IMG/VR virus record: IMGVR_UViG_3300036791_001200
Location: 1 to 37,793 of that record
Source of the DNA: a virus
Direction: 5' to 3' (one strand)
DNA: 37,793 nucleotides
Shown one piece after another: positions 2,852 to 26,817 of the stretch. The stretch's first letter is position 1. Each line of letters begins with the position of its first letter. The notes beneath the pieces are model-generated. The model had not been told where the DNA came from. It searched no databases and saw nothing but the letters and a program-made list of their open reading frames with translations. The translations under genes and the position numbers were made by a program.

Positions 2852-3113
2852 CGTCTTCGTCCATGCTATTCTGGGCTTCGCGGCCCACCGCGACCCACTC
2901 TCTGAGAATGTCGAGCAAACTCTCGGCGCCGTTCACCATGCGCCGGCTGCGCTCGCGCTCGATATCGCCCTGGCTGTCGTCGCCGGAGGTCACGAACAGC
3001 GTGTAAGCACGCCTATTCAACTCGTCGCACGCCGCTTTCAGCGTGTCGTGCCGCAACACGTCCTCGGCGGTGCGCCCGCGAGTGACCGCACCGGCGTGGC
3101 TATTGCTCGACAT
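2844..3113 (-). CDS. Small phage protein between portal and scaffold (89 aa)
   Basis: A small acidic, helical protein with an acidic end (EDDA). The frame is open further upstream (TTG at 3146, ATG at 3134), but the ATG at 3113 gives the smallest overlap (14 bases) with the portal's last codons, the style used throughout this operon; none of the three starts has a strong Shine-Dalgarno. The stop overlaps the scaffold start by 8 bases. Proteins of this size sit between portal and scaffold in many SU10-like phages. The function is unknown and I see no recognisable motif. Confidence 0.7.
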   Translation of the reverse strand: MSSNSHAGAVTRGRTAEDVLRHDTLKAACDELNRRAYTLFVTSGDDSQGDIERERSRRMVNGAESLLDILREWVAVGREAQNSMDEDDA

Positions 3114-5496
3114 CGGGATTGGCGATCTGAGCATTCGACTGTCCAACCTGGTGCGCGATGCGATAATGTTCGAGCGCCGTCTCGTTTTGCAGTTGCGCCA
3201 TATCGACGCGCATATCCTGCATCGCCTTCAACTGCTGCAACTGCACGTCGGCTTCGGCCTTCATCCGCTCCAACTGCAACTGCTGCTGCGCCATCCACTG
3301 CTCCATCTGCATTTTTTGCTGGTTGCGCTGCGTTTCCGCCTGCTGCTTCGCCTGGCCGCCCTGAATCTGCGCCTGCGTGCGCGCCATGATCGCCTGCGCC
3401 TGCGCCTGCGCGGCTGGATTTGGAGCGGTTTTAGCCTGTTGCGCCGCTTGCTGCGCCTGCGCTGCCTGCTGCGCCATCATCTGGTCGACATTTGGCGGCA
3501 ACTGCTTAAAATAGCGGTTTATGTTGCGGTAGGGGCTGAGATTGAGCAGATCGGTGAGCGTATTGCGGTATTCCGGCAGCCCCACTAACGGATTTCCTGG
3601 CCCCAAAGTCTGAAAAACCTGTTCCTGCGTCGCTTTCATCGACATCAACGTGCCGACGCGCACCTGATCGCTGTCGTTTCCCAATCCAACTACTGGAATG
3701 ACGTTCATCGACGGGTCGAGGCCGTGCGGATCGACGGTCAGGAAGCCTTGCGCGGTCTTGAAGGTGACGAGCCGGTCCTGGTAGTGCACGGCGAGCCTGA
3801 GCAAGGCGCGAAACAGGTCGGTAATGGCGTTTTCAACATAATTTCGCGCGATCGTCTCGATCCGCAGTTGCGCCTGCGCCACGACGGCACGCACGCCAAC
3901 CTCGGTGGAGGATTGCAGGGCATCGGGGTCGAGGCCGGCCGATTGCGGCGACACCCCGGTTCTGAACTCCCTGATCTTGTCGAGCCGGTCGATCATCGGG
4001 AACGCCTGCTCGCCAACGAAGGGTATCGGCAGCGGCGCGTACGCACCGGGCGCCCGCACCTTGATGATGCGGCCGAAGCTCTCATCCGCGGCGTCGTCGA
4101 GATTGACCTGTCCTTCGACGGCGGCGAATTTCGGGTTGATGGCTTGATAGAGGCTGTCTAACTGATTACGCAGGATCGCGGTCTGGATGTCTTGCAGATC
4201 GAGCACCAGGCGGGCAACGCCAGTGCCGATCACCGAGTGCGGCACGTTATAGGGCGAGCCAACGGTGAACTCCCACACGTCGGTGCGCTCGCGATCAATG
4301 ATCTCGAACTCTTCCCCTACTGCCGTGACGCGCCAGATTTCGGGTACCCCGTCGCCGTCGGTATCGACGCGCACGTTGGCCTGGATGACGCTGAGCGGGT
4401 AGGTGGTCGGATCGTCGCTGATGGTGGTGTCGCGCTGACGCAGCGTGTGCGGCACCCGCGCCTGCCGCTCCGCGGTCATCGATTTGTCGGTGCCGGCATA
4501 CTCCACCACGTCTTTGTAGCGATACCCGGCCGCGGTCATCTCACCGACGGTGCGGGTGCAATCGATCGCCATCAGCTTGGCATCGTCGGGCGTGGTGCAG
4601 GCGGGATCGAGCAGGAACTCGTCGGGCGGCACACAGGAGACCTTGATCACCGTCTTCGAGGTCTTGCGGGAGAGGCGCAGGTAGAAGGTCGGCGGCAGCG
4701 CAGGCGGAGGCGCCGCTGGAGGCATTGGGAGCGCTTGTGGAGGCGCCTGACCGTTCAAGGGCTGTGCAGGTGCAGCCAGGGCTCCTGGTGGCCCTGGCGG
4801 CCCTCCTACGGGCATAGGCGGCCCACTGGGCGCCCCTATTGGTCCGATCGGCCCTGCCGGCCCTGCCGGCGGCGGCACCTGCGGTGCCGGAGGCACGGTA
4901 TCGGGCGACGCGAGAGCGTCGCGGGGTGGCGATGCCTCGTCTTCGTCGCCTTCCTCGTCTTCGGCCTCTTCCGGTTCCTCTTGTCGCCGCTCAAGCACCG
5001 TCGCATCGGTTGCGGCGGCGAGCGCATCCGCCTCATCCGCGGTCAGCCCCTGATACTCTTCCTCGCTGACGCTCTCACAATCTTCGGCACGATGGTAGAA
5101 AACGCCCATATCCGCGACCAGACCATCACGGAAGAAGTCTGAGAGGATAGTCCAGCCGCGGTTCTCGCGCAGGAACAGCCAGTGCACGTAGTCGGTGGCA
5201 ATCTCGGCCTGGCGCTGCGCTTCTGCCGACGTAGCCTCGTAGGAGACCAGGTGGCCGGAGGCGCCGAACATCTTCATCAACTGGGCGTGCACCGCCTCGA
5301 CAGTATCCCTAACTTCCATCGAGACGGCGCTTGAACGGTTACGTCGCGAGTTCGCTCTGACCAAGCCTTTATAATAGTTCCACTGCCGAACTCTTTCCGG
5401 TCCTAACTGCCCATCGCGATATTGGCGTGCATCCGTCACCAGTGCCGTGAACACGCGCTGGAAGGCGGCATCGCCAAGTTTGCGACGGGCGGCCAT
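3100..5496 (-). CDS. Portal protein (SU10-type, 798 aa)
   Basis: This would form the dodecameric portal through which DNA enters and leaves the head. The N-terminal region (ARQYRDGQLGPERVRQWNYY, residues 24-42, and SMEVRDTVEAVHAQLMKMF, 59-77), the overall length, and a long Gln/Ala-rich C-terminal barrel-like helix (about 690-790) fit the large podovirus portals. The odd part is residues 170-270: an acidic run (173-188), the peptide RDALASP encoded by the interspersed palindrome (4905-4922), then a collagen-like Pro/Gly tract. Conserved portal sequence resumes at TFYLRLSRKTSKTVIKVSCV. The insert looks like a surface-exposed loop extension. It starts three bases after the stop of the Pro/Gly-rich gene. 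Confidence 0.9.
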   Translation of the reverse strand: MAARRKLGDAAFQRVFTALVTDARQYRDGQLGPERVRQWNYYKGLVRANSRRNRSSAVSMEVRDTVEAVHAQLMKMFGASGHLVSYEATSAEAQRQAEIATDYVHWLFLRENRGWTILSDFFRDGLVADMGVFYHRAEDCESVSEEEYQGLTADEADALAAATDATVLERRQEEPEEAEDEEGDEDEASPPRDALASPDTVPPAPQVPPPAGPAGPIGPIGAPSGPPMPVGGPPGPPGALAAPAQPLNGQAPPQALPMPPAAPPPALPPTFYLRLSRKTSKTVIKVSCVPPDEFLLDPACTTPDDAKLMAIDCTRTVGEMTAAGYRYKDVVEYAGTDKSMTAERQARVPHTLRQRDTTISDDPTTYPLSVIQANVRVDTDGDGVPEIWRVTAVGEEFEIIDRERTDVWEFTVGSPYNVPHSVIGTGVARLVLDLQDIQTAILRNQLDSLYQAINPKFAAVEGQVNLDDAADESFGRIIKVRAPGAYAPLPIPFVGEQAFPMIDRLDKIREFRTGVSPQSAGLDPDALQSSTEVGVRAVVAQAQLRIETIARNYVENAITDLFRALLRLAVHYQDRLVTFKTAQGFLTVDPHGLDPSMNVIPVVGLGNDSDQVRVGTLMSMKATQEQVFQTLGPGNPLVGLPEYRNTLTDLLNLSPYRNINRYFKQLPPNVDQMMAQQAAQAQQAAQQAKTAPNPAAQAQAQAIMARTQAQIQGGQAKQQAETQRNQQKMQMEQWMAQQQLQLERMKAEADVQLQQLKAMQDMRVDMAQLQNETALEHYRIAHQVGQSNAQIANPDVEQ
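4905..4922 (-). repeat. Interspersed 18-bp palindrome, copy 3
   Basis: GCGACGCTCTCGCGTCGC (minus strand), one loop change, in the portal gene at the border between acidic and Pro/Gly tracts; read as RDALASP. Confidence 0.85.
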
Positions 5497-5499
5497 TGG

Positions 5500-5958
5500 T
5501 TAGGCAGGCTTCGGCTGCGCGGTCAGCGGCGGCGCCACCGTCACCGGACCGATGCCGGGATAATTTACGACGATGTAGGGCGGCGGAGTGATCGGCTGCA
5601 CCGGGAAACTGCCCGGAACGACGGTCGTTGGATCGCCTGGGCTCGGTGGCTGCGGCGGCGTCAGTTCCGGCGGCACGTTGGGTGGATAGATCGGGCCACC
5701 ACCGACAGCGGGTGGGATCGGATGCTCGGGATGGCCAGGATACCAGGGCGGTTGCCCACCACCGGGCGGTATGATCGGCCCACCGCCGACGACCGGCGGA
5801 ATAGGATGTTCGACATGCGGCGGTGGTCCACCCGGCATCGGGCCACCACCTACTGACAACCCAGTAAGTGTCGCCTCGCCGATCAAAACGACATTTTGCG
5901 CCGTGCGGGCCAACTTGTCATAGAGCATGCCGGTGATAGTTAGTTCTACTGCTGCCAT
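5500..5958 (-). CDS. Pro/Gly-rich repetitive phage protein (152 aa)
   Basis: The frame opens at 5967, but the ATG at 5958 (MAAVELTITGMLYDKLARTA) is preferred: GGAG lies 8 bases upstream of it and only 3 upstream of the outer ATG. A short ordered N-terminus of about 40 residues is followed by a low-complexity domain with two copies of HPIPPxVGGGPIxPP, then Pro-rich sequence to the end. There is no signal peptide. It lies between a PEP-CTERM protein gene and the portal gene, so it may be a minor virion or decoration protein, but no family is recognised. The Pro/Gly bias parallels inserts in the portal and in an internal virion protein. Confidence 0.7.
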   Translation of the reverse strand: MAAVELTITGMLYDKLARTAQNVVLIGEATLTGLSVGGGPMPGGPPPHVEHPIPPVVGGGPIIPPGGGQPPWYPGHPEHPIPPAVGGGPIYPPNVPPELTPPQPPSPGDPTTVVPGSFPVQPITPPPYIVVNYPGIGPVTVAPPLTAQPKPA

Positions 5959-5979
5959 TACATACACTCCAGTTAAGGT

Positions 5980-6627
5980 TCAGCGACTACGGGAACGCAG
6001 GAACGTCAGCCCGGTCAGGCCAACGAGAAACAGCGCCAGTGAGGCCGGCTCAGGCACAGTTGACGCATCGGCATCGCCGGCAACGCTGGCGGTGAACGGC
6101 GCGATGGTGGTGCCGAGCTGACCGAGGCCAGGAGATACGTTGCTGAAAGCGAACGTAATCGACGACGGCGCCGCCAGTTCGGATACCGGGATCACACTGG
6201 AGGTCAGCGAGAGCGCATCAGGCGGGTTAGATACGTTGACAGATAGCTGGCTGCCGGTGGCGAGGCCGAACGCGGCGTCGATGAACGTGCCACTGAGAAA
6301 ATCGATGCCCGTGCAGCCGGGACCGCTGGTGATGCAGAAATTGCCGCTGTAGTGCTGCAACAGCGCCTGCCCGACCCCTTGCACCGCATCGATACTAGTG
6401 GCTGTGAGATCGAGATCGGCACTGATCGGCGTCACCTGCCCAAGCAGTTGCGTCAGCAACACGGTCGCATCGGTGATGACGATCGTGGTCTGCGTGTCGC
6501 CAGCATTAACAGTGGCAGTGGTGGTGTTAGAGCCGCTCGTCTGGCCAAACGCGGTGATCTGCACCGTCGCATGCGCGGCCGTGACAAGTGCTGCCGAGGC
6601 GACGCCGGCGAGAATAACAGCTTTCAT
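5980..6627 (-). CDS. PEP-CTERM sorting-signal exoprotein encoded in the phage head operon
   Basis: Starting at the ATG at 6627 (AGGAG 8 bases upstream; ATGA overlap with the terminase stop), the 215-aa product has a Sec signal peptide (residues 1-20, ending AHA|T), a Thr/Ser-rich beta-type mature domain with two Cys in FCITSGPGCTG, and a C-terminal PEP-CTERM signal: VPEPASLALFLVGLTGL beginning at residue 191, then a basic RSRSR tail. In host bacteria this signal is recognised by an exosortase, which anchors or releases the protein at the envelope during exopolysaccharide-linked secretion. The mature domain is not recognised. A secreted exosortase substrate between TerL and portal is very unusual. 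It could alter the lysogen or infected-cell surface (exclusion, aggregation), or be a captured host gene. Confidence 0.85.
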   Translation of the reverse strand: MKAVILAGVASAALVTAAHATVQITAFGQTSGSNTTTATVNAGDTQTTIVITDATVLLTQLLGQVTPISADLDLTATSIDAVQGVGQALLQHYSGNFCITSGPGCTGIDFLSGTFIDAAFGLATGSQLSVNVSNPPDALSLTSSVIPVSELAAPSSITFAFSNVSPGLGQLGTTIAPFTASVAGDADASTVPEPASLALFLVGLTGLTFLRSRSR

Positions 6628-8081
6628 ACCACCCACTCCTGCACTGGTGTCGTTACGCGCCGCCGATGGCGGGCGTCAGGCATGTAACCAACCGCCATGT
6701 CGGTGCCGGCGGCAAAGGTGAGCGCCAGTGCATCGGCCACGTCGGGCGAGGCGAGGCCGCGGCGCTTCATCTCGTCTTTGCTCTCGATGCGCATGCGGCC
6801 ATCGGAGGTGAAGCGATAACGAATTGACGTGACCTCGTTGACGAGACGGTCGTGCCGCGGCACGGTGACGGTGCGGGTGGCGAACCAGTCGCGCATGCGC
6901 CCATACAGTTCATCGCGGAGACGGTAATACTGCCCACCGATAGCGGGACTTTCACTGACATTCACACCTATCGTGGGCAGCTCCAGCTCGCGCAACCGGT
7001 CCGCCGCACCGGCACCGAGGCCGATCGCGTCGACGCAAATCGCGGCGGGGCGCATGTCGTCGGGCAGGGTGCTGTACTCGACTTTGACGGCACCGACGAT
7101 GTGCATCAGGTCGGTGGCGCGCCAGATGCGCGGTGTTTCCGGCACCGCGTTGCCGATGCGCTTGATCAGGCAAGAACTGTCGGCGCCGAAACGGGCGAGA
7201 TCGAGACCCCAGACGGCATTACCATAGTCGGAACGAGTAAAGACAGGCAGAACACGCTCCAAAGCGGGTTCAACGAGTGAACGAGGTACGAGTACCTCGT
7301 CCTCGTTCATCGGAAATTCGCCGGTTACGCGTGCTTGGTAGAAAGCGCTGTTGATGCCGTAAGCTTCGGCCTGCTCCTTGATCCATTTAGGGTCGACACG
7401 CGGGCTCTCGGTGCAGGGAACACGAAATGCCAGCCAGGAGCCGGAGAGATCGGTGTGGGTGCGGAAGAAAAATCCGCTGCTACGCAGTGGGTTTCCAGTC
7501 ATCACCGTGATCGCACCGGGGGTCGACATGCTGCCGCTGCCGGCCTCAAACACCTGTTCCGGCACCCCTGACGCCTCGTCGATGATCAGCAGCACATTGG
7601 CGGCATGCACGCCCTGGATCGCCTCCGGCGTCTCGGCGCGTGAGGTACGGGCGGAGACGAAGCACTGCGCCGGCGCGGCTTTCAGCGCCATGCGATCGTT
7701 GAACACTTCAAACAGGTTAGAAATACTTGGCGGGCACTCGCCCAGCCAACGCCGGATTTCCGTCCAGAGGGCGTCATAAAGTTGCTGCGCACTGGGTGCC
7801 GTGACCACGCATTTGGAGGGAAAACGCGTGACGGGAAACCAAATCGCCAACCAGGCAAGTAAGGATGTCTTACCGACACCGTTACCGCTTCTAATCGTGA
7901 TGCGGGTGACGCCGCGACGCAGTGCGTCGAGCACTTTAGCCTGCCAGGGGTCAGGTTTGACGTTGAGAGCTTCTCTAACGAAGGCTAAAGGGTCGCGCGA
8001 CCAGCGGTACATCTGCGCGGCGGCGCCCAGCGTGGGATCGCCAAGCAGCGGCGCAACGGTATCCTGGATTACGATAGCCAT
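6624..8081 (-). CDS. terL: Terminase large subunit (packaging ATPase and nuclease)
   Basis: This 485-aa protein would cut concatemeric DNA and pump it through the portal. The ATPase domain has a Walker A SGNGVGKT (residues 65-72), an adenine-binding-type region upstream, and a Walker B VLLIIDEA (163-170) followed by a coupling motif TGNP (195-198). The C-terminal RNase H-like nuclease has acidic residues in WGLDLARFGAD (291-301), CVDAIGLG (349-356) and SPDVADAL (445-452), giving D294, D351 and D447/D450 as candidate metal ligands. The length is typical. The start overlaps the upstream small gene by 13 bases, and the stop overlaps the downstream PEP-CTERM start (ATGA). Confidence 0.93.
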   Translation of the reverse strand: MAIVIQDTVAPLLGDPTLGAAAQMYRWSRDPLAFVREALNVKPDPWQAKVLDALRRGVTRITIRSGNGVGKTSLLAWLAIWFPVTRFPSKCVVTAPSAQQLYDALWTEIRRWLGECPPSISNLFEVFNDRMALKAAPAQCFVSARTSRAETPEAIQGVHAANVLLIIDEASGVPEQVFEAGSGSMSTPGAITVMTGNPLRSSGFFFRTHTDLSGSWLAFRVPCTESPRVDPKWIKEQAEAYGINSAFYQARVTGEFPMNEDEVLVPRSLVEPALERVLPVFTRSDYGNAVWGLDLARFGADSSCLIKRIGNAVPETPRIWRATDLMHIVGAVKVEYSTLPDDMRPAAICVDAIGLGAGAADRLRELELPTIGVNVSESPAIGGQYYRLRDELYGRMRDWFATRTVTVPRHDRLVNEVTSIRYRFTSDGRMRIESKDEMKRRGLASPDVADALALTFAAGTDMAVGYMPDARHRRRVTTPVQEWVV

Positions 8082-13493: not shown

Positions 13494-13615
13494 GCCAGAC
13501 ATCACACGAATTTCCAGCGAAAAGCATGCTTTTTGCCAGACATCACACGAATTTCCAGCGAAAAGCATGCTTTTTGCCAGACATCACACGAATTTCCAGC
13601 GAAAAGCATGCTTTT
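13494..13615. repeat. Three 41-bp direct repeats carrying palindrome AAAAGCATGCTTTT
   Basis: Units at 13494-13534, 13535-13575 and 13576-13615 are essentially identical, each starting GCCAGACATCACACG and ending with the 14-bp palindrome AAAAGCATGCTTTT. A degenerate palindrome overlaps promoter P4, and an exact one occurs at 14634-14647. This looks like a protein-binding iteron array (operator, partition or origin type). Confidence 0.9.
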
Positions 13616-13642: not shown

Positions 13643-13671
13643 TTGACAACTATAGAAAAACATGCTTTAAC
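13643..13671 (+). promoter_or_regulatory. Promoter P4 with overlapping palindromic operator
   Basis: TTGACA (13643-13648), 17-base spacer, TTTAAC (13666-13671). The spacer and -10 box contain AAAACATGCTTT, a degenerate copy of the palindrome in the adjacent 41-bp repeats, so a protein binding the array could also occlude this promoter. Confidence 0.7.
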
Positions 13672-24992: not shown

Positions 24993-25433
24993 ATGGCCGG
25001 CAACTCCCAATTCCGCATTCGTCTCCCCGACAACCTCCACGACCGCTTACTGGCCGAAGCCGCACAGCTCGAAACTGACATCTCAACGCTGGTCAGTCGA
25101 GACCTGTCCTTCCTGTACGCGAAGGACAAGTCGTCAGCCACCGATATCGGCATGGCCATCATCAAGTGCTGGCGCGCTTATGAAGCGCTCCGCGGTGAGC
25201 CGATCAATCTCGACCATGAACTAGCCCCTAAAGTGCTCGAACTGAGCCGGCTTCTATTAGGGCAAATTCACGATTCTAAAGCAACGATCGAAGATCAGCG
25301 CGAGTTTTACCAGTTTCTTCAGATTCTTATGACACTGAAAAGAACCGATTTTGTTGATCTACAGAAGACTGTACTGATGATGCAAACCATGGGTCAGAAG
25401 CCAAAAGCATCACGCAGCCGGGTGGCGGCCTGA
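24993..25433 (+). CDS. Arc/ribbon-helix-helix-type DNA-binding protein (146 aa)
   Basis: The ATG at 24993 (GAGAGAAA upstream) is preferred over a TTG at 24972. The N-terminus MAGNSQFRIRLPDNLHDRLL, then AEAAQLETDISTLVSRDLSF, is the pattern of Arc-type repressors (beta strand FRIRLPDNL, two helices). The remaining 100 residues are helical and unrecognised. It lies in front of, and overlaps by one base, the integrase gene, so it probably represses or modulates integration and the divergent promoters. The most plausible repressor in the integration module. Confidence 0.75.
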   Translation: MAGNSQFRIRLPDNLHDRLLAEAAQLETDISTLVSRDLSFLYAKDKSSATDIGMAIIKCWRAYEALRGEPINLDHELAPKVLELSRLLLGQIHDSKATIEDQREFYQFLQILMTLKRTDFVDLQKTVLMMQTMGQKPKASRSRVAA

Positions 25434-26521
25434 TGTCCGCACTTCGCAAGCCCGTGCTCACGCAGCGCGGCCGTCTCTGGCAGGCAAAAACCTATATCGG
25501 CCGCATCAACGGCAAATCGCAATATGCCTACGTTTCTGCCGAAACTGAAGCTGAAGCGACAGCGGCAGCTTATGCGAAGCTGCGCGAGGCCAACCCGGCG
25601 GTGGGGCTGGGACAAAGCGCGCTCACGCTGGGCGAGTGGATGCAGCAGCATCTTCAGTACATGCAGCGCGAGCGCAAGCACTCGACCACGCACCGCGCCA
25701 ACCAGATTTACCGCGCCTATATCGAGCCGGTGCTGGCGCATAAGAAGCTGCGGCAGATCGCACCGCTCGATATCGACCTGGTGCACGCGCGGCTCTACAA
25801 GGCGCAGTTAAGCGGCAGCACCATCCGGCAGACGCATTTCCTGCTCAACAGTGCCTTCCGCCGCGCCAAACGCATGGGTTTGATGAGCACTAACCCGTGC
25901 GCGGATATGGACAAGCCGAAGCTGCAAGAGGTGAGAAAGCAGGTGCTCACCATTGAGAATCTGAAAGCTCTGCTGGCCGCGTTTGCAGGCACCTGGTGGC
26001 ACGACCATGTGCTGCTGCTCACGCACACTGGCTTGCGCCGCGGTGAGCTGTTGGGCTTGCGGCGGCGCGATGTCGATCTCATCGCCGGTACCATCACGGT
26101 CGGCAACACGCTCTTGGAGATCGACAGTGAGATGCGCGTCGACACGCCGAAGACGGCGGCCGGCTTCCGCATCCTCGCCCTGCCCGCCGACGTGATGACG
26201 ATGCTGAAGACGCGGCTTGAGACATTCGATGCCCTCAGCCCCGATCACCCCCTGTTCCCAAACCGGGACGGTGACTGGCAGCGCCCTAGCAGCCTCTCAG
26301 TCGCCATCAAAGAGCAGGCGAAGCGGTTGGGGCTGGAAGCGTGGACGCACCTCTTCCGGCACTCGCACGCGTCGATCCTGCTGCGCGCCACCGGCGATCT
26401 CGCGCAGGTGTCCAAGCGTCTCGGGCATGCTAATACCGCCATCACGGCGCGGGTCTACTCGCAGGCGATGGAGCAGGTGGATCACAACATGGCCACGGTT
26501 TCAGGGAAGCTGTTCGCATGA
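25433..26521 (+). CDS. int: Tyrosine integrase
   Basis: A 362-aa site-specific recombinase. The N-terminal arm-binding type domain (about 1-60, LTQRGRLWQAKTYIGRINGK) is followed by a core-binding SAM-like domain (about 64-145) and the catalytic domain: R202 in HTGLRRGEL, K240 in TPKTAAG, H306 and R309 in HLFRH, H332 in LGHANT, and nucleophile Y342 in ARVYSQ. All catalytic residues are present. It is directed toward the tRNA-Ser gene 208 bases downstream, the presumed attachment site. One-base overlap upstream (TGATG) and ATGA overlap downstream. Confidence 0.95.
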   Translation: MSALRKPVLTQRGRLWQAKTYIGRINGKSQYAYVSAETEAEATAAAYAKLREANPAVGLGQSALTLGEWMQQHLQYMQRERKHSTTHRANQIYRAYIEPVLAHKKLRQIAPLDIDLVHARLYKAQLSGSTIRQTHFLLNSAFRRAKRMGLMSTNPCADMDKPKLQEVRKQVLTIENLKALLAAFAGTWWHDHVLLLTHTGLRRGELLGLRRRDVDLIAGTITVGNTLLEIDSEMRVDTPKTAAGFRILALPADVMTMLKTRLETFDALSPDHPLFPNRDGDWQRPSSLSVAIKEQAKRLGLEAWTHLFRHSHASILLRATGDLAQVSKRLGHANTAITARVYSQAMEQVDHNMATVSGKLFA

Positions 26522-26729: not shown

Positions 26730-26817
26730 GGAGGGGTGGCCGAGAGGCTTAAGGCACTGGTCCTGAAAACCAGCATGGCGTTAGCCATCGCGGGTTCGAA
26801 TCCCGCTCCCTCCGCCA
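26730..26817 (+). tRNA. tRNA-Ser(UGA), complete including encoded CCA
   Basis: Acceptor GGAGGGG (26730-26736) pairs with TCCCTCC (26807-26813, one G-T), discriminator G and CCA at 26815-26817. The anticodon arm CTGGT-CCTGAAA-ACCAG gives anticodon TGA at 26764-26766. A long variable arm and a T arm GCGGG-TTCGAAT-CCCGC are present, as expected for class II tRNA-Ser. It lies between the integrase module and the P'-like repeats, so its 3' half is the probable attachment core. It may be functional and supply UCA decoding in infected cells. Confidence 0.93.

Follow-up and report, generated by a model that had tools for sequence, protein, structure and literature searches.

The PEP-CTERM/exosortase system, which sorts proteins to the cell envelope, is widespread among environmental bacteria, and most of its substrates have no known role. 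Phage morons and surface-exclusion proteins, such as Llp of T5 and SieA of P22, are optional phage genes for envelope proteins that are absent from sister phages and that make use of a lipobox or of plain membrane spans. Optional phage genes are known, as are PEP-CTERM proteins; in open-licence papers, a corpus that leaves most subscription journals outside, we came across no description of a PEP-CTERM protein encoded by a phage. According to the PEP-CTERM model, a substrate, once exported, is retained at the inner membrane and is cleaved close to the motif before it moves outward (PMC1569441). Bacterial substrates (TIGR02595, PF07589; Haft 2006, PMC1569441) combine a Sec signal, an E-P motif, a helix and a basic end with a body that lies outside known families and lacks any other membrane span, and their genes usually stand alone, each as an operon of its own that follows a long intergenic stretch. 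Host proteins of this class attach exopolysaccharide to cells, and one of them, PepA, drives flocculation (PMC9850573).

We analyzed a 37,793-nucleotide stretch of viral DNA (the stand-alone IMG/VR record IMGVR_UViG_3300036791_001200), referred to as the window in the rest of the text. An earlier note made from the sequence alone had placed an exosortase substrate at positions 5980 to 6627, inside a phage packaging operon. The coordinates were right, but it is the minus strand that encodes the gene (stop codon 5980–5982), the plus-strand frame over the same interval being full of stops. Its 215-aa product, supported by its open reading frame, its PF07589 and TIGR02595 matches and its homologues, begins with a Sec signal peptide judged from the sequence (residues 1–20, positions 6568–6627 on the minus strand) that ends in AHA at residues 18–20. 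It continues with a predicted exported beta domain (residues 21–190, 6058–6567, minus) and finishes with a tail (5983–6057, minus) in which VPEPAS at residues 191–196, with its Pro-Glu-Pro near the C-terminus, is followed by a membrane helix predicted by AlphaFold2 (residues 195–214) and the basic end RSRSR. No further membrane span is predicted between signal peptide and tail. The tail, VPEPASLALFLVGLTGLTFLRSRSR, exceeded the curated thresholds of both PF07589 (21.8 bits, with 20.7 required) and TIGR02595 (24.0 bits, with 16 required). Both the signal peptide and the PEP-CTERM tail claimed by the earlier note were borne out. So was its reading of the start: the ATG (6625–6627) overlaps the stop codon of the terminase gene terL (6624–6626) as an ATGA at 6624–6627 (minus), and an AGGAG ribosome-binding site lies 8 nt 5′ of the ATG (6636–6640, minus).

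The gene sits among phage packaging and head genes, all on the minus strand. Upstream is terL (6624–8081; 485 aa), identified by tblastn against annotated terminases with a best identity of 50.6%. The portal gene had been expected to come next; it does follow (3100–5496; SU10 type, PF23899 494.6 bits, phrog_1216), and the gene immediately downstream of the PEP-CTERM gene codes for a Pro-rich protein of 152 aa (5500–5958; ATG at 5958, GTG at 5967 possible) that is a recurrent neighbor of the family. The SU10-type major capsid protein is encoded at 762–1730 (PF17236, 252 bits). On the plus strand, a tyrosine integrase gene (25433–26521; PF00589, 68 bits) is closely followed by a tRNA-Ser (TGA) at 26730–26817, a possible attachment site; this pair suggests that the window phage is probably temperate.

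Homologues of the window protein were found in 42 other IMG/VR contigs by searches of viral contigs that were widened stepwise (1, 2, 3, 16, then 42 contigs), and one more was found later, which brings the family to at least 43 other phage records. These carriers are metagenome contigs in which genes were called as simple open reading frames. A DNA pattern for the peptide NPPDTLTLT matched 16 contigs, every one of which encodes a family member, and the member found later (E = 1.6e-80) is encoded by the phage of L187. Among the INPHARED phages, three family members used as queries detected no homologue. The occurrence of a PEP-CTERM protein inside a phage packaging operon, as claimed for the window, is thereby supported by the recurrence of the same family in many phages.

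The sorting tail has been kept across the family. Clustering of 40 complete proteins at 90% identity gave 21 clusters, and an E-P motif, a hydrophobic stretch and at least three basic residues in the last 12 were present in all 21 representatives; 17 of these have an exact P-E-P, while SEP, FEP, TEP or GEP stands in the other four. By eye, the (A/S)-x-A box of the signal peptide is kept in nearly all representatives. TIGR02595 was matched at E≤0.05 by 18 of 23 family members, some members missing its threshold, and PF07589, run against 50 phage records, gave matches only in the four family carriers known at that time. The confinement of the PF07589 matches to carriers, together with the TIGR02595 matches, indicates that the tail is not due to chance. 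An alignment of 23 sequences contains 30 invariant positions, including those of the E-P motif and of two cysteines, Cys98 and Cys105, which as judged from sequence would fit an exported protein. For the pairs for which it could be computed, dN/dS ranged from 0.10 to 0.35; the family gene is under purifying selection.

AlphaFold2 run with 23 sequences predicted a signal helix, one beta domain spanning residues 21–190 and a tail helix (mean pLDDT 83.4, pTM 0.74), the model built with 4 sequences having been poor (pLDDT 33). Foldseek returned no match at E≤0.001 for the beta domain, the best VIA Z score, 8.8 to PloI4-type barrels, being near noise level, and bodies without their tails matched no known family.

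Although the family gene lies mostly in the packaging/head module, its slot varies between phages. It is found between TerL and the Pro-rich gene that precedes the portal gene in the window and in L170, after TerL and a Pro-rich gene in L164, between the portal and capsid genes in G049, just before TerS-TerL-portal in G051, before TerS in G053 and G055, between TerS and TerL in G048, and after the capsid gene in G054. Carrier terminases belong to differing PHROG types (phrog_38, 9, 979 and 2) and the neighboring TerS, TerL, portal and major capsid proteins are likewise of different types, indicating that the gene has entered unrelated phages. Within the group formed by L164, L170, L174 and L178, one nuclease-TerS-TerL-portal order is shared and the family gene occupies four slots. 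The six sisters L187–L192 (TerL identity 71–76%) have no insertion there, two of these contigs being short with a partial operon; one sister, G072, has the family gene elsewhere, downstream of portal, and another, G073, has an unrelated PEP-CTERM protein. G049 shares 56% (TerL), 48% (portal), 43% (scaffold) and 63% (capsid) identity with Microcystis phage Mae-Yong1326-1, which lacks the four-gene island, PEP-CTERM gene included, found between portal and scaffold in G049. The varying slots and the absence from sisters argue for an optional and mobile gene. The earlier note would have counted a lack of homologues in related phages against its reading; such a lack is indeed found for the nearest TerL relatives of the window, whose identity to its TerL is at most 51%, but it does not refute that reading, since unrelated phages do carry the family.

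Despite this mobility, the gene appears settled in its phages. Its GC content (0.623) and GC3 (0.73) match the values for other window genes, including terL, portal and polymerase (GC3 0.65–0.81), and across 41 partly redundant loci gene GC follows locus GC with r = 0.97. These figures lend no support to the suggestion of a recently captured host gene. Nor do 84,980 bacterial species genomes, in which two pattern scans gave no homologue, although scans limited to a few short peptides leave room for bacterial homologues. The related idea that the locus is a host fragment or a misassembly draws on PEP-CTERM being otherwise a bacterial feature and on a remote similarity of the body to a PEP-CTERM protein of Polymorphobacter megasporae; it is already contradicted by the ATGA overlap with terL, the phage-like GC3, the dN/dS values below 0.4 and the number of other phage records, and we regard it, like a very recent capture, as barely credible. 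The similarity concerns WP_216710526.1, encoded by plasmid p29362-2, which has a PEP-CTERM tail and a weakly similar body in common with the family, at 32.5% identity over 131 aa only (E = 6e-4). It scored 22 bits against the family body profile and went unreported in a whole-record profile search; beyond this one weak bacterial match, plasmids yielded nothing usable. From sequence comparison, an ancient capture of a host PEP-CTERM gene would be a plausible origin.

Against this background, the family shares with bacterial PEP-CTERM substrates all the protein features listed above, and differs from them in that its genes reside in packaging/head operons, instead of standing alone behind a large intergenic region, and in that no EpsH is encoded by the phage. 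The exosortase domain PF09721 did not score above cut-off in any carrier phage record tested; a 15.5-bit match in the L002 phage was under the cut-off and was taken as chance. Processing would then depend on a host enzyme. Among named phages, those whose terminases come closest to the carrier terminases (40–56% identity) infect Rhizobium, Microcystis and further Gram-negative bacteria, a kinship that fits exosortase-bearing groups but proves nothing; no PEP-CTERM match was found in the five named phages scanned. The best-scoring named relative of the whole window protein is PepA (NF033554, 30.5 bits against an equivalog cut-off of 80 bits), which 22 of 23 family members match. None of three tail-less bodies matched NF033554, so that the PepA score derives mainly from the tail and kinship with PepA was rejected.

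Like the genes of the T5 Llp/P22 SieA type, the family gene is optional and codes for a predicted envelope protein, but it uses a PEP-CTERM tail and lies inside late operons, overlapping terL in the window. As in classic morons, it is present in some and absent from other similar phages in the sister groups, the comparison for the window itself being limited to TerL relatives at most 51% identical. Unlike a classic moron, which has its own promoter and terminator and a base composition unlike that of the phage, the window gene overlaps the terL stop with its start codon and has the composition of its surroundings. A terminator-like sequence was seen by eye after the PEP-CTERM gene in L002.

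We find it somewhat more probable than not that the members of the family are optional phage proteins, made late, which reach the surface of the infected cell, or are shed from it, through the host exosortase. Its conserved tail suggests that carriers use the host exosortase machinery to place the protein on the surface of the infected cell. An accessory late gene moving among phages of presumably Gram-negative hosts would be expressed together with packaging or head proteins, and its product would be exported by Sec across the inner membrane and lose its signal peptide. The C-terminal helix would then anchor the protein so that the PEP motif faces the periplasm, where the host exosortase would cut it and pass it on to the outer surface of the dying cell or into its exopolysaccharide. 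In that location the beta domain, which a disulfide probably stabilizes, would most likely alter the surface to the benefit of the progeny, for instance by keeping new virions from re-adsorbing to infected cells and debris or by keeping competitors out. Protection of the progeny by blocking re-adsorption or competitor entry is the least certain part of this proposal, and we hold it as a doubtful one. Counted against surface display are the four lineages without an exact PEP and the members that fall under the TIGR02595 threshold.

An integrase was found in three of 23 carrier records tested, many of them fragments, which makes a role in lysogens possible for some carriers. The gene could in that case serve lysogenic conversion or biofilm life, being made in lysogens and changing how the host flocculates or binds exopolysaccharide, as the flocculation driven by host PepA (PMC9850573) and the integrase and tRNA-Ser of the window would allow; nevertheless, the same count leaves most carrier records without an integrase, fragmentary as many are, and a gene overlapping terL should be silent in a lysogen, so we judge this unlikely overall. 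Lysis or envelope disruption, in which the bitopic protein and an adjoining small single-helix protein would open the envelope with the tail as a mere anchor, is suggested by single-helix proteins of 62–75 aa that some dozen carriers encode next to the family gene or close by, in several cases with a GTGA overlap. However, a mere anchor needs no E-P motif, yet E-P is kept in all 21 lineages; the small protein had no significant Pfam or PHROG match among the homologues scanned, was not seen in the vicinity of the family gene in some carriers, the window among them, and occurs in L097/L098 with no PEP-CTERM gene nearby; and an endolysin was not seen as a regular neighbor in a non-exhaustive search. 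We consider this reading quite improbable. Packaging and head genes surround the family gene in most lineages and the adjoining Pro-rich proteins could be decoration fibers, as expected if the product were a head or decoration protein of the virion whose PEP-CTERM look is incidental. Yet signal peptide, paired cysteines and exosortase tail are kept throughout, and the gene is absent from the same operon of the sisters, from Mae-Yong1326-1 and from phiM5, whose record lists part of its virion proteins; a virion role therefore seems very unlikely.

Some neighboring genes recur. Pro-rich proteins, which fall into two types, are encoded beside or near the family gene in the window, G049, G051, L146, L149, L160, L162–L165, L168–L170 and L172, and in none of about 80 TerL-relative loci without the family gene; the window and G049 proteins share 46% identity over 80 aa. 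Tentatively, and with rather less than even confidence, we propose that the PEP-CTERM gene, the Pro-rich gene and often the small membrane protein gene form a mobile cassette shared by several unrelated phage groups. With it, toward the end of infection, these phages would commandeer the host exosortase and give the cell surface or its polysaccharide a new coat; the body of the PEP-CTERM protein could be exchanged for an unrelated one, with the Pro-rich partner staying in place.

The PEP-CTERM protein of phage G073 (L196, about 850–1587), whose body is unrelated to the family, is encoded immediately behind a Pro-rich gene whose type matches that of the family partners. In L162, L163, L165, L167, L168 and L169, the single-helix protein has 65–66 aa and is encoded directly after the PEP-CTERM gene, its GTG start lying inside the last codons of the latter (GTGA overlap). 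A 578–653 aa protein that has a Pro-rich N-terminal part and falls into no known family is common to phages whose other genes differ (L003:4605–6347, L002:6140–7876, L009:4218–6179); it accompanies the family gene in L002, L003, L009 and, partly, L154–L156, and also occurs in L097/L098 with no family gene nearby.

Retention of the sorting tail in 21 lineages of one phage family would mean that phages make use of the PEP-CTERM/exosortase system. The family would also supply small substrates, each encoded by one gene, for which a phenotype can be expected (adsorption, exclusion or aggregation), and a marker linking uncultured phages to exosortase-bearing hosts.

Two repeats were also observed in the window. 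A dispersed 17-bp imperfect palindrome, GACGCNAGAGCGTCGCG, has six good copies (2646, 2790, 4907, 8385, 13134 and 17817), seven matches occurring where 0.5 would be expected when up to 3 mismatches are allowed, and several copies lie in frame within genes (portal, scaffold-like and a 115-aa open reading frame), where they encode the peptide RDALASP. At 13494–13615, three perfect 41-bp tandem copies contain the palindrome GAAAAGCATGCTTTT, and similar copies occur at 13655 and 14633.
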